This document shows positions 13,439 through 50,807 of a DNA stretch of 64,000 nt, one piece after another. The stretch is from the NCBI GenBank assembly GCA_029550525.1, contig JAKPHF010000048.1, positions 226,181 through 290,180 of the forward strand, given 5' to 3'. Made by a program: the position numbers and the translations under genes. The stretch comes from Planctomycetota bacterium (lineage in GTDB: Bacteria; Planctomycetota; Phycisphaerae; UBA1845; PWPN01). The notes under the pieces are model-generated. The model did not search any database, was not told where the DNA came from, and saw nothing but the letters and a program-made list of their open reading frames with translations. Each line of letters begins with the position of its first letter. Position 1 is the first letter of the stretch.

Positions 13439-16105
<2,667 letters not shown>

Positions 16106-16240
16106 AATGACGAAGTCCGAATGACGAATGTCGAACGAAAGCTATGAGCTGTGAGCCGGACCGGTGGCCCGCAGCCGCCGGGTCTCATTCGGGCTTCGAC
16201 ATTCATTCGTCACTCGTCATTGCCTCCCGAGGAGGGCTCC
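16106..16240. repeat. Inverted pair of heptad TGA arrays between gyrB and galU
   Basis: Directly after the gyrB TAG come four 7-base words in register (ATGACGA, AGTCCGA, ATGACGA, ATGTCGA), then TGAGCTG and TGAGCC (TGA at 16145 and 16152). On the plus strand TGA falls in all three frames within about 45 nt. The right arm is the same family on the minus strand, with TGA read from 16219, 16212 and 16205 at exact 7-base spacing. The two arms can pair to a long imperfect hairpin. Confidence 0.75.
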
Positions 16241-17194
16241 ATGCAGGTTCGGAAAGCGGTCATCACGGCGGCCGGTCGCGGCTCGGCGGATTTTCCCGCT
16301 TGGACCTCCGCTCATCAGGCCATGCTGCCCATGGTCGACCGAGACGGGCTGGTCAAGCCGGTGGTGCAGATCATTGCCGAAGAGGCCCTCGACAGCGGTA
16401 TCGAAGAGATTTGTCTGGTGACCGCACCGGGCGACGAGGCGGTTTATCGTTCACATTTTCAGACGCTGGCCCGCCGTCTCGCCACCGGCGGCGAAGGCAA
16501 AGCCACCCAGGAGCAGCAGCGACGGTTGGCCGATTTCGAGCGGCGGTTGAGTTTTGCCGTTCAGGACAAGCCCGAGGGTTACGGTCACGCCGTCTGGTGC
16601 GCCCGTGAATTCGTCGGTGGCGAGCCGTTTCTGCTGCTGGTCAGCGATCACCTGTATGTTTCCGGCGAGGCCCGCCGCTGTGCCCGGCAGGTGATCGATC
16701 TGGCCGTCGCGCAGGATTGTGCCGTGGCTGCTGTTCAGGCCACTCGCGAGCATCTCATCCACCAGTACGGGACGGTGGCCGGCAAGCGGGTGAGTGGACT
16801 ATCGAACACGTTCCAGATCGAACATATCCTCGAGAAGCCGACGCCCACGGCAGCCGAGCAATTGCTGCACGTACCCGGCTTGCGTGTCGGCCATTACCTC
16901 TGTTTCTTCGGCATCCACGTGCTCACACCCACCATCTTCAGCATTCTTGACGAGCACGTGGAACGATCGCGGCGACAGGGTGAGGAGATTCAGCTCACGC
17001 CGGCGTTGCAGGAGTTGGCCCGCTCGGAGAAGTACCTCGCGGTTCAGACCAACGGCCGTCGATACAACATCGGTGTGAAATTCGGATCGCTGGAGGCTCA
17101 GATTGCACTCGCCATGGCCGGACGCGATCGCGATGAGCTGCTCATTCGGCTGATGGAACTGCTCCTGCAGGCGGGCGTGCGCAATGACGAGTGA
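16241..17194 (+). CDS. GalU-like UTP-glucose-1-phosphate uridylyltransferase, catalytic motif degenerate
   Basis: A 317-aa protein with the nucleotidyltransferase fold of GalU, the enzyme that makes UDP-glucose. The real start is ATG 16241, five bases after GAGGAGG; the track's start at 16151 runs through repeat DNA. ITAAGRG, IIAEEALDSGIEEICLVTAP, EGYGHAVWCAREFVG and a late YNIGVKFG match GalU. However, the signature GxGTRxLPxTKxxPKEMLP reads GRGSADFPAWTSAHQAMLP, so the usual Arg and both Lys residues are missing. It may be inactive, regulatory, or have different substrate handling. Its last residues (NDE) and its TGA stop are encoded by a heptad repeat array. The next gene is a kinase/pyrophosphorylase fusion. 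Confidence 0.8.
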   Translation: MQVRKAVITAAGRGSADFPAWTSAHQAMLPMVDRDGLVKPVVQIIAEEALDSGIEEICLVTAPGDEAVYRSHFQTLARRLATGGEGKATQEQQRRLADFERRLSFAVQDKPEGYGHAVWCAREFVGGEPFLLLVSDHLYVSGEARRCARQVIDLAVAQDCAVAAVQATREHLIHQYGTVAGKRVSGLSNTFQIEHILEKPTPTAAEQLLHVPGLRVGHYLCFFGIHVLTPTIFSILDEHVERSRRQGEEIQLTPALQELARSEKYLAVQTNGRRYNIGVKFGSLEAQIALAMAGRDRDELLIRLMELLLQAGVRNDE

Positions 17195-17312
17195 CGAGAA
17201 GAAGCTGTGGGCTATGAGCTCTGAGATGTGAGCTGTAAGCCGGAGAATCGGGACGAGATTGGGCCGGCAATTCATTCGTCATTCGGATTTCGTCATTCGT
17301 CAGGCATCGTGG
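17184..17312. repeat. Heptad TGA array overlapping the galU stop, with inverted right arm
   Basis: TGA occurs at 17185, 17192 (the stop codon of the GalU-like gene), 17215, 17222 and 17229, then TAA at 17236, with TGG at the in-register position 17208. The words are ATGACGA, GTGACGA, then TGAGCTN copies. The right arm on the minus strand has TGA read from 17302, 17295, 17281 and 17274, again multiples of 7 apart. Stop codons therefore occur in all frames on both strands. Confidence 0.75.
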
Positions 17313-17325
17313 GTGAGCGACGACC

Positions 17326-20300
17326 ATGTCAATCCTGGTTGATACGATCACGAGCAGCGATCCGCAGATTCGCAATCGGCCGTTAGCGGGGCTGCTGGCT
17401 CGACTGAGTGTGACTGAGATCCTGGGCGAGTGCGAGGAACTCGAACGGTTTCGCCGGGGCTGCGAGAACCTCTACGAGCGCGTGCGGGCATGCCTGTTTC
17501 TGGCGGCGGCATACCGGTTTCACATTCAGGAAGCGCAGGGCATCAACCCGCTGGGCACCGTGCCGTTCGAAGGCTACGTCGATCTGCTGGAGCGGCGCTT
17601 CGAGCAGGCCATCAAGCGATTTCGCGCTGCCATGCATGAGACCGGGCCCAACGGGGCGGTGATCAGCGCGCTGGCGCGGGCGTATAATCAGCTCGGGTTT
17701 CAAACGCTCACCGATCAGGTGCGCCGCAGCGTCCGAGGCTCGCGCGGCAACCAGTGGATGTTCCGCGTCGGGCATCAGGCCGATCATCCGCTGCGGATTC
17801 GCCGTGAGCTTCTGCAACGGAGCGGCTTGACGTACCCGATTCTCTGCGAGCGCACGCCCGTGCGGATGGACCTGTCGCACAGCGGCTGGTCCGACATCTT
17901 CTTCTTGGGCATGGACTATCCCGAAGGGGCGCGGGTGGTCAACGTGTCGGTGGACCTTGGCGTTTATCGCCGCGACGCCGACGTGCGGCCGCCAGTGGAG
18001 ACGTATGTGCGCGTGCTGGAAGAGCCGCTCTTGCGGTTGACCAGCATCGATCTGGAAGACACCCGCGACATCACGCAGCTCGACGATCTGTTCAACTTCG
18101 GCAGCGATTACTTGAGCCTGCTCAAGGCTGGCATCATCGCCTCGGGTCTGATCCCGCCGTCGTTTGAGGGTTCCGGCCAGTCGCTGGCCGAGATTTTGGC
18201 CCGGACGGTCGGGCCGGGGTTGGGTCTGGAACTGGTTACGAAGGTAAACGACATTCCGAAGGGCTCGCGGTTGGCGGTCTCGACCAATTTGCTCGCGTCG
18301 ATCGTGGCGGTCCTCATGCGAGCCACCGGCCAGACCAGGAATCTCGAAGGCGGACTGGAGGAGTCCGAGCGACGCCTTGTTGCGTCGCGAGCCATCCTGG
18401 GCGAATGGCTGGGCGGCTCCGGCGGTGGTTGGCAGGACTCAGGCGGGACATGGCCGGGCATCAAGATCATTCGCGGCGCTGAAGCTCGACCGGGCGATCC
18501 GGAGTACGGCGTGAGCCGTGGTCGATTATTGCCCGAGCATGAGGTGCTGGGGCCCGATCGCGTCAGTCCACAGGTTCGCGAGTTGTTTGCCTCCAGCGTC
18601 GTGCTGGTGCACGGCGGCATGGCCCAGGACGTCGGGCCCATCCTCGAGATGGTGACCGAAAAGTACCTCCTGCGCAGCGGTCCTGAGTGGCAGGCGCGCC
18701 AGGAGATGCGCGGTATCTTCGATGCCATCATCGACGGCTTGCAGGCAGGCGATCTCAAGGCAGTCGGCGCGAATACCACGCGCAACTGGGACGGGCCGCT
18801 CAAGACCATCATTCCCTGGGTGACCAACCGGTTCACGGAAACCATCATTCGCGACGCTCGCGCCCGGCTGAAGGAGGACTTCTGGGGTTTCCTGATGCTC
18901 GGCGGGATGTCCGGCGGCGGCATGGCGTTTTTCGTCAATCCTCGGCGGCAGGCCGCCTTCCGCGACGAAATCCTCGAGATCATGAACCGGGCGAAGAGCG
19001 AGCTGTGCGACGCAATCCCATTCGCCATGGATCCGGTGGTGTACAACTTCCGGATCAACGATTACGGCACGGTGGCCACGCTGCGACAAGGGCATCAGGC
19101 CATCATGCCGCCCCGTTATTATGCCGTGCAGGTGCCGGCTTTGACACGGTTGGAGCGCGACAAGGTGTCCATGCTGCGGCGAGCGGATCTGGACAACTTC
19201 ACCAGCCGCGGCGGCACGCCCGACGAACTGATCCGCGTGCTGCGGGTCATGGTGAATCACCTGTTCCCGTCGCCGGGCAACGCGCCGGCCGAGGGTCGTG
19301 CCGAGTGGGCTGCCGAGCTGGACCGCATCAAGCGCGAGAACGGATTCGATGCCGTACAGCATGAGCGCATCCGCGAGGATCTTCGCCGCGGGCGTATCGG
19401 TTTGGCCCGCAATCGCCTGCCCGCATCGACGGAGATCGTTGATGTGCAGAGTGGTGACTTCATCGACGCCCAATCCGGCGCGCCGGACAAAGCCGTCCAG
19501 GTCGGCAAGGATGCGATTCGCCGCGGTGAGGTGGCGGTGGTCTCGCTGGCCGCCGGCGTCGGTTCGCGCTGGACGCACGGGGCGGGTGTGGTCAAGGCGG
19601 TCAACCCCTTCGTCATGATCGATGGCGCGCACCGCTCGTTCATGGAGCTGCATCTGGCCAAGAGCCGCCGAACGAGTCGAACATACGACACTACAATTCC
19701 ACACGTTTTCACAACCAGCTTTCTGACCCACGGGCCGATCGAAAAGCACCTCGCGCTGGCGAACAATCACGGCTACCCGGGGCCAGTGTATCTGTCGCCC
19801 GGCCGATCCATCGGCCTTCGCATGGTGCCCATGGTTCGCGACCTGCGTTTCCTGTGGGAGGAGCTTCCGCAAGAAACACTCGACGAGCAGAAGCAGAAGG
19901 TTCGTGATGACGTTCGCCAAGCCTTGATCAACTGGGCCCAGTCGCGGGGTGAGGCCAGCGACTATGTGGACAACGTGCCCGGTCAGTGCTTCCACCCGCC
20001 GGGCCACTGGTACGAGCTGCCGAACATGCTGCGTAACGGCGTTCTCGCCCGTATGCTGGCCGACCAGCCGAGTCTAAAGTACCTGATGGTCCACAACATT
20101 GACACGCTGGGAGCCGATGTCGATCCGGGCGTACTGGGGCTGCACATTCTGGGCGAGAATGCGGTAACGTTTGAGGTCATCGGCCGGCGCATCGACGATC
20201 GCGGCGGCGGTCTGGCTCGGGTGAACGGGAAAGTGCGTCTGCTGGAAGGACTTGCCCAGCCCAGCGAGGCCGACGAGTTTCGGCTGAGCTTTTACAACTC

Positions 20301-20658
20301 CAACACCGCATGGGTGGACATTGACCGCTTCCTGGCGCTGTTCGGTATCAACCGGGCGATGCTCTCGGGCCCGCAGGAGTTGTTGGCCGAGCGCGTGCGC
20401 GAGGTGTCCAGCCGCGTGCCCACGTATGTGACCATCAAGGACGTCAAGCGCCGCTGGGGTCACGGCCAGGAAGACGTCTTTCCCGTCTGCCAAACAGAGA
20501 AGCTCTGGACGGACATCACCGCACTGCCCGACGTGCGCTGCGCGTTTGTGGCTGTCTCACGCCGGCGAGGTCAACAACTGAAGGATGTTGCCCAGCTTGA
20601 TCCGTGGGTCAACGACGGCTCGCTCGCGTACGTGCGAAGCCTCTGTGACTTCGGTTGA
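17326..20658 (+). CDS. Fucokinase-like GHMP kinase fused to a UDP-sugar pyrophosphorylase
   Basis: An 1110-aa two-enzyme fusion. After an alpha-helical N-terminal region (about 1-150) comes a GHMP sugar kinase: RMDLSHSGWSD (about 179), an ATP-loop-like IPKGSRLAVSTNL, GGGWQDSGGTWPGIK (about 365, very like fucokinases) and LGGMSGGGMAFFV (about 525). From about 735 a UDPGP-family nucleotidyltransferase follows: LAAGVGSRW (about 741), PPGHWYELPN (about 893), HNIDTLGAD, VNGKVRLLEGLAQ (about 965) and FYNSNTAWVDID (about 988). It should phosphorylate a free sugar at C1 and then attach a nucleotide, probably UMP. The known fucokinase/GDP-fucose pyrophosphorylase has the opposite domain order and an unrelated pyrophosphorylase domain. 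The sugar is unknown. It follows the GalU-like gene and is convergent with a DUF167 gene. Confidence 0.82.
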   Translation: MSILVDTITSSDPQIRNRPLAGLLARLSVTEILGECEELERFRRGCENLYERVRACLFLAAAYRFHIQEAQGINPLGTVPFEGYVDLLERRFEQAIKRFRAAMHETGPNGAVISALARAYNQLGFQTLTDQVRRSVRGSRGNQWMFRVGHQADHPLRIRRELLQRSGLTYPILCERTPVRMDLSHSGWSDIFFLGMDYPEGARVVNVSVDLGVYRRDADVRPPVETYVRVLEEPLLRLTSIDLEDTRDITQLDDLFNFGSDYLSLLKAGIIASGLIPPSFEGSGQSLAEILARTVGPGLGLELVTKVNDIPKGSRLAVSTNLLASIVAVLMRATGQTRNLEGGLEESERRLVASRAILGEWLGGSGGGWQDSGGTWPGIKIIRGAEARPGDPEYGVSRGRLLPEHEVLGPDRVSPQVRELFASSVVLVHGGMAQDVGPILEMVTEKYLLRSGPEWQARQEMRGIFDAIIDGLQAGDLKAVGANTTRNWDGPLKTIIPWVTNRFTETIIRDARARLKEDFWGFLMLGGMSGGGMAFFVNPRRQAAFRDEILEIMNRAKSELCDAIPFAMDPVVYNFRINDYGTVATLRQGHQAIMPPRYYAVQVPALTRLERDKVSMLRRADLDNFTSRGGTPDELIRVLRVMVNHLFPSPGNAPAEGRAEWAAELDRIKRENGFDAVQHERIREDLRRGRIGLARNRLPASTEIVDVQSGDFIDAQSGAPDKAVQVGKDAIRRGEVAVVSLAAGVGSRWTHGAGVVKAVNPFVMIDGAHRSFMELHLAKSRRTSRTYDTTIPHVFTTSFLTHGPIEKHLALANNHGYPGPVYLSPGRSIGLRMVPMVRDLRFLWEELPQETLDEQKQKVRDDVRQALINWAQSRGEASDYVDNVPGQCFHPPGHWYELPNMLRNGVLARMLADQPSLKYLMVHNIDTLGADVDPGVLGLHILGENAVTFEVIGRRIDDRGGGLARVNGKVRLLEGLAQPSEADEFRLSFYNSNTAWVDIDRFLALFGINRAMLSGPQELLAERVREVSSRVPTYVTIKDVKRRWGHGQEDVFPVCQTEKLWTDITALPDVRCAFVAVSRRRGQQLKDVAQLDPWVNDGSLAYVRSLCDFG

Positions 20659-50659: not shown

Positions 50660-50807
50660 TACCAGGAGTAAATGACGAAACCCGACTGACGAATGACGAA
50701 AAGAAGCTATGAGCTCTGAGCTATAAGCTGTGAGCCAAACCGTCGGGTCGCGAGTGCGACCTCGTGCTTCGTCATTCGTCATTTGTCGCCGCGTCGCCGT
50801 GTCGTCC
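50660..50807. repeat. Inverted pair of heptad TGA arrays with octad extension
   Basis: Plus strand: TGA at 50673, 50687 and 50694 (7-base register) in ATGACGA words, then TGA 50710, TGA 50717, TAA 50724 and TGA 50731 in TGAGCTN words. Minus strand after the GT2 stop (TAA, 50808-50810): GACGACACGG, CGACGCGG, CGACAA, then ATGACGA twice (TGA read from 50781 and 50774). Two word families and one octad family (GACGCGGC) share one gap. Confidence 0.72.

Follow-up and report, generated by a model that had tools for sequence, protein, structure and literature searches.

The stop codon and the last three amino acids of a GalU-like nucleotidyltransferase gene are written by a repeat element. The gene lies in the window, i.e. 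the whole stretch of 64,000 nucleotides of Planctomycetota DNA that was analysed. It is called GalU-like because its top NCBIfam match, TIGR01099 (galU), scores 149 bits, below the cut-off of 326.8. With a probability of roughly 0.8, a palindromic element of about 120 bp was copied to the 3' end of this gene, where it displaced the old stop together with an unconserved tail.

A palindromic heptamer element at the gene end

The 3' end of the open reading frame reads CGC AAT GAC GAG TGA, and the protein tail is ...LLLQAGVRNDE. The last four codons are covered in frame by heptamers ATGACGA (17184-17190) and GTGACGA (17191-17197), which stand back to back and in register, as the first-pass annotation had described them. 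Its start at 17184 marks the right site but falls one base inside the AAT codon; the repeat begins at 17183. These 12 bases stand outermost in the left arm of a larger palindromic element, termed element 2 (Table 1).

Table 1. Genes and repeat elements of the window
Feature	Position	Strand	Remarks
gyrB, DNA gyrase subunit B	13550..16105	+	NCBIfam TIGR01059 gyrB above cut-off
Element 1	16106..16221	.	A arm AATGACGAAGTCCGAATGACGAATG, B core GCTATGAGCTGTGAGC, reverse A arm CATTCATTCGTCACTCGTCATT
GalU-like nucleotidyltransferase gene	16241..17194	+	317 aa; Pfam NTP_transferase above cut-off
Element-supplied last codons	17183..17194	+	AAT GAC GAG TGA = N D E stop
Element 2	17183..17302	.	left A arm 17183-17197, B core about 17203-17241, right A arm 17270-17302
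UDPGP-family gene, downstream	17326..20658	+	1110 aa; Pfam UDPGP
Third A-B-A' element	50670..50784	.	like elements 1 and 2

In element 2, arms made of AATGACG words (A) flank a core made of GCTRTGA words (B). The left arm reads AATGACGAGTGACGA, the core heptamers GCTGTGGGCTATGAGCTCTGAGATGTGAGCTGTAAGC and the closing end at 17302 ATTCATTCGTCATTCGGATTTCGTCATTCGTCA. A 13-mer of the arm, TGACGAGTGACGA, is 92% complementary to 17290-17302, and the fold of 17184-17305 has a z-score of -3.6, with none of 200 shuffled sequences folding as well. The gap between the galU-like and UDPGP genes, 131 nt, consists of 108 nt of element 2 and 23 nt that include the UDPGP leader; the other 12 of the 120 nt of the element are the last codons of the galU-like gene. 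An Rfam search of the region gave no match. Tandem Repeats Finder did not report the array at the galU-like end, whose shortness, degeneracy and palindromic form are the probable cause. In the window the bare heptamer ATGACGA shows no enrichment (13 copies, 10.7 expected); it is the arrangement of the words that carries the signal.

Element 1 is located just upstream. Its first base directly follows the TAG of gyrB and its end lies 19 nt before the galU-like start, so that within 16103-16240 the entire gap between the two genes is element plus ribosome binding site. Its fold has a z-score of -2.8. The native TAG of gyrB (16103-16105) follows ...VKNLDI, a C-terminus conserved among family orthologues. 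In contrast to the galU-like gene, gyrB, conserved at its C-terminal end, keeps its own stop.

The elements belong to a large family in the source genome (G000; 5.8 Mb, of which the element surveys covered 1.48 Mb). Exact 14-mer ATGACGAATGACGA occurs in 40 copies genome-wide, its reversed control in none; a second word, GCTATGAGCTNTGAGC, has 928 matches with up to two mismatches, against 7 for the control. In the surveyed 1.48 Mb, words CTCATAGCT, TTCGTCATT and their relatives are 10-20 times more frequent than Markov expectation. The 182 elements detected there comprise 123 with B only, 47 mixed and 12 with A only, and the copy number of heptamer units differs between elements. B arrays often stand alone without A arms, commonly about 15 nt or less after a stop codon (e.g. 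L071:8351-8416 and L071:13575-13646).

Related genomes of the class carry the A arm word patchily (43 of 200; controls were near zero in most). They display the same outer-arm layout with differing cores. For example, in genome G192 a plus arm is followed by a minus arm in 23 of 27 clusters. The B core word was absent from all 60 relatives searched, and B module AGCTATGAGCTGTGAGC is present in 55 exact copies in G000. The core would therefore seem to have expanded recently, or in this genome alone, between A arms that are widespread.

Orthologous gene ends and recurrence at other genes

The proposal that the array supplies the galU-like stop and last residues was compared with the ends of 32 orthologues. 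Two of them, with 69% and 57% identity, are from the same family; in both, the galU and UDPGP genes are paired and the array is lacking, and their tails are ...LLVQFEQDRSGDAKTGPGGPAQASA and ...LLATRQQVRS, respectively. In 30 further relatives from named genomes, unrelated tails follow the conserved "ELL" region and no array is found at the stop, with two of these genes having a single chance word nearby. The tails are thus variable and none of the 32 ends with NDE. The conserved alignment with the nearest relative stops at residue 310 of 317, before array-coded residues 315-317. Since no array-free orthologue ends at the same residue with the same codons, the claim stands.

Adjacency of galU and UDPGP genes is kept in most orthologous loci. 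Their gap ranges from -4 to 231 nt, is short in most cases (12 nt in L002, the nearest relative) and holds no array. Relative G007 has A arrays elsewhere (20 matches) and none at its galU-like gene. An empty site was not found in a close relative: in the one genome of the same genus that was compared (77% complete), neither galU nor gyrB gave a match. Among named relatives, the closest galU sequences belong to Singulisphaera (Planctomycetota; 62-63% identity).

Repeat-supplied gene ends recur in the same genome. With genes called by a simple in-house caller, 17 of the 59 elements of the surveyed 1.48 Mb that include A hold the stop of a neighbouring gene. Under a strict exact-word definition, 7 of 39 facing 3' ends in G000 have their stop inside an element, as do 4 of 26 and 1 of 9 in G192 and G155, respectively, genomes from two other families. 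A sulfatase of G000 has the end ...QNRGQNDE* and a SCO1/SenC-like protein (L076:17731-18699, minus strand) the end ...RQMTNDEIRMTNDE*, with NDE* array-coded in both. The array-coded tail of the latter comprises 12 residues, MTNDEIRMTNDE. In orthologues of both proteins the alignment ends before the array-coded residues and no array is present at the stop; two sulfatase relatives have an extra domain in place of the tail. The sulfatase at L076:9085-10821 has very many paralogues, both in G000, with 34 matches, and in related genomes. The element at L076:8983-9096 stops both of its convergent neighbours, an alpha/beta hydrolase gene and a sulfatase gene.

Further, the positions of elements were compared with 2000 simulations in which they were placed at random within their own gaps. 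B elements within 15 nt of a stop number 47, against 22.1 expected (reached in none of the simulations), and A or AB elements within 3 nt number 21, against 15.5 (p 0.0025). The same simulation revealed no enrichment at 5' flanks or starts. In G192 there is no excess within 3 nt of stops (6 observed, 7.2 expected), and the bias is confined to a proximity of up to 30 nt and to elements keeping away from starts; G155 has too few elements for a comparison. A paired test on tandem gene pairs of G000 was not significant (p 0.52, n 19). The signal of [AG]TGACGA at TGA stops is weak (11 observed, 5.4 expected), because supplied stops also use other array words or the B module.

Origin of the repeat-coded end

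Translated forward, the AATGACG repeat gives NDE*, MTNDE* and * in its three frames, and its reverse frames are open: seven is not a multiple of three, hence a stop occurs in every forward frame and in none of the reverse ones. A copy placed at the 3' end of a gene would displace the former stop and unconserved tail; at the galU-like gene, the reading frame would then enter the array for three codons and meet its TGA. As each heptamer shifts the frame by one, an entering ribosome would stop at once, after NDE or MTNDE, and owing to the palindrome the same forward arm would face genes from either side. With all-frame stops and a palindrome, a copy laid across a gene end would replace the gene's own stop, and only a few unconserved residues would be lost. 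Such copies would be tolerated since only these last residues are lost, and copies would be found at gene ends because those further in are lost. While the sequence, its recurrence, the positional bias and the orthologue ends are observations, it is inferred that the element came in whole and that purifying selection let copies survive at gene ends. In mRNA, the cistrons would be separated by a 3' hairpin.

It might be argued instead that the module is kept by selection, as a fail-safe stop in all frames combined with an mRNA 3' hairpin that blocks decay or terminates transcription. The elements are concentrated right after stops, most strongly the B module, they close all three forward frames to traffic from either side, and elements 1 and 2 fold stably. 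We nevertheless consider this explanation unlikely. Purifying selection against other sites predicts an equal bias, and the two arms of one element match each other no better than they match arms of different elements, so there is no sign of compensatory change and the palindrome reflects a generic consensus and not a coevolved stem. No U-tract or terminator-like site accompanies the elements, nor was an intrinsic terminator (GC-rich stem followed by U run) found at elements 1 and 2; the hairpin may still have a role in mRNA. The first-pass annotation saw here an array acting as a translation stop. This is trivially correct, since the TGA in use is that of the array. A selected stop function is not needed, because period 7 puts TGA in all forward frames and upstream insertions would cripple proteins; stops facing either side explain the finding without it. 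Also unlikely is the broader idea that palindromic heptamer elements form one family throughout the class, which by some mechanism targets its copies to the 3' ends of genes and serves there as a two-sided, all-frame translation stop with an mRNA 3' hairpin. If true, a mobile module would determine both where proteins end and which 3' UTRs they have in these genomes.

Growth in place, as the array was originally interpreted, supposes that TGACGA stood by chance at the native stop and was multiplied through replication slippage until the heptamers invaded the gene. Heptamer slippage has already been proposed for bacterial arrays (PMC4692102) and would suit units whose copy number varies among elements. 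Yet the same arms, core and reverse arm are present at many sites, with both arms here, and slippage yields neither an inverted arm 75-90 nt away nor a common core. We regard this origin as improbable: a complete two-armed palindrome nearly fills the gap to the next gene, and it is better read as a unit that was inserted or copied. Slippage may have adjusted copy number after arrival. Ordinary conservation, in which NDE-stop would have been inherited with the protein and would resemble the repeat only fortuitously, is hardly credible. Nothing was found in its favour; the 32 orthologues have unrelated tails and lack the array, and the unrelated sulfatase and SCO1/SenC protein of the same genome carry the identical three-residue tail.

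As for copying of the element, it had been hoped that the locus might show how such modules spread; it gives no answer. No match to Y1 transposase (PF01797) was obtained in G000, with control genomes positive, and mobilisation by a RAYT is rejected on this ground. Target-site duplications were not found, words shared between flanks being no different from those of shuffled pairs (3.34 against 3.31), with element boundaries so fuzzy that short duplications could be missed. In this respect the elements depart from MITEs, with which they share terminal inverted repeats, a length within 70-300 bp, noncoding location and multiple copies.

Comparison with known repeats

Tandem 7-nt units at many, mainly intergenic loci place the elements among interspersed heptamer arrays of the STRR or TAACTGA kind. 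TAACTGA direct repeats of marine Beggiatoaceae, Cyanobacteria and Bacteroidetes likewise stop all three frames; 13 repeat sets overlap stop codons, and survival at the protein periphery was described (PMC4679880). Both groups are intergenic heptamer arrays with stops in all forward frames, a patchy distribution and no known mechanism of spread (PMC4679880). TAACTGA repeats differ in their word, are direct and almost never inverted, whereas those described here are palindromic; they mostly lie just upstream of start codons, and the present elements just after stop codons (PMC4679880). GGGNATC heptamers of Xanthomonas and Nostoc are enriched within 50 bp of stop codons, with some overlapping them (PMC4692102). 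They share with our elements heptamer arrays near or over stops and some inverted pairs, but they are G-rich and quadruplex-forming, and AATGACG and GCTRTGA are neither (PMC4692102).

GTAG REPs often provide with their ends the TAG stop of flanking ORFs, and CGTC REPs have no known transposase (PMC3733652). Like these REPs and BIMEs, our elements are palindromic, of high copy number and mostly downstream of genes (PMC3733652). REPs are single stem-loops of 20-40 bp with unpaired GTAG or CGTC tag and short tail, in contrast to about 120 bp of heptamers and core here (PMC3733652). The elements cannot be assigned to REPs or BIMEs, as there is no tagged stem-loop of 20-40 bp and CGTC occurs only inside TTCGTCATT in a paired arm; the RAYT expected of GTAG REPs is lacking in G000. 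Rickettsia palindromic elements, mentioned in PMC3733652, are also palindromes that add residues to proteins; they are read through in frame inside proteins, and the present elements end them.

The heptamers AATGACG and GCTRTGA differ from the published TAACTGA and GGGNATC, and no publication on the arm string or the element family was found in a search that covered few subscription journals. The array cannot be read beyond a few codons in any forward frame, and the galU-like gene is an orthologue-checked case of an interspersed repeat rewriting a protein C-terminus for a reason readable in the sequence. For annotation, tails such as NDE* or ...MTNDEIRMTNDE*, when borne by unrelated proteins of a single genome, are encoded by the repeat and should be kept out of homology comparisons. 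As the arms recur widely, if patchily, through the class and the core seemingly belongs to one genome, spread and core exchange could be studied. Stop-supplying behaviour is already known from other bacteria; what sets this family apart are its words and its two-module palindrome.
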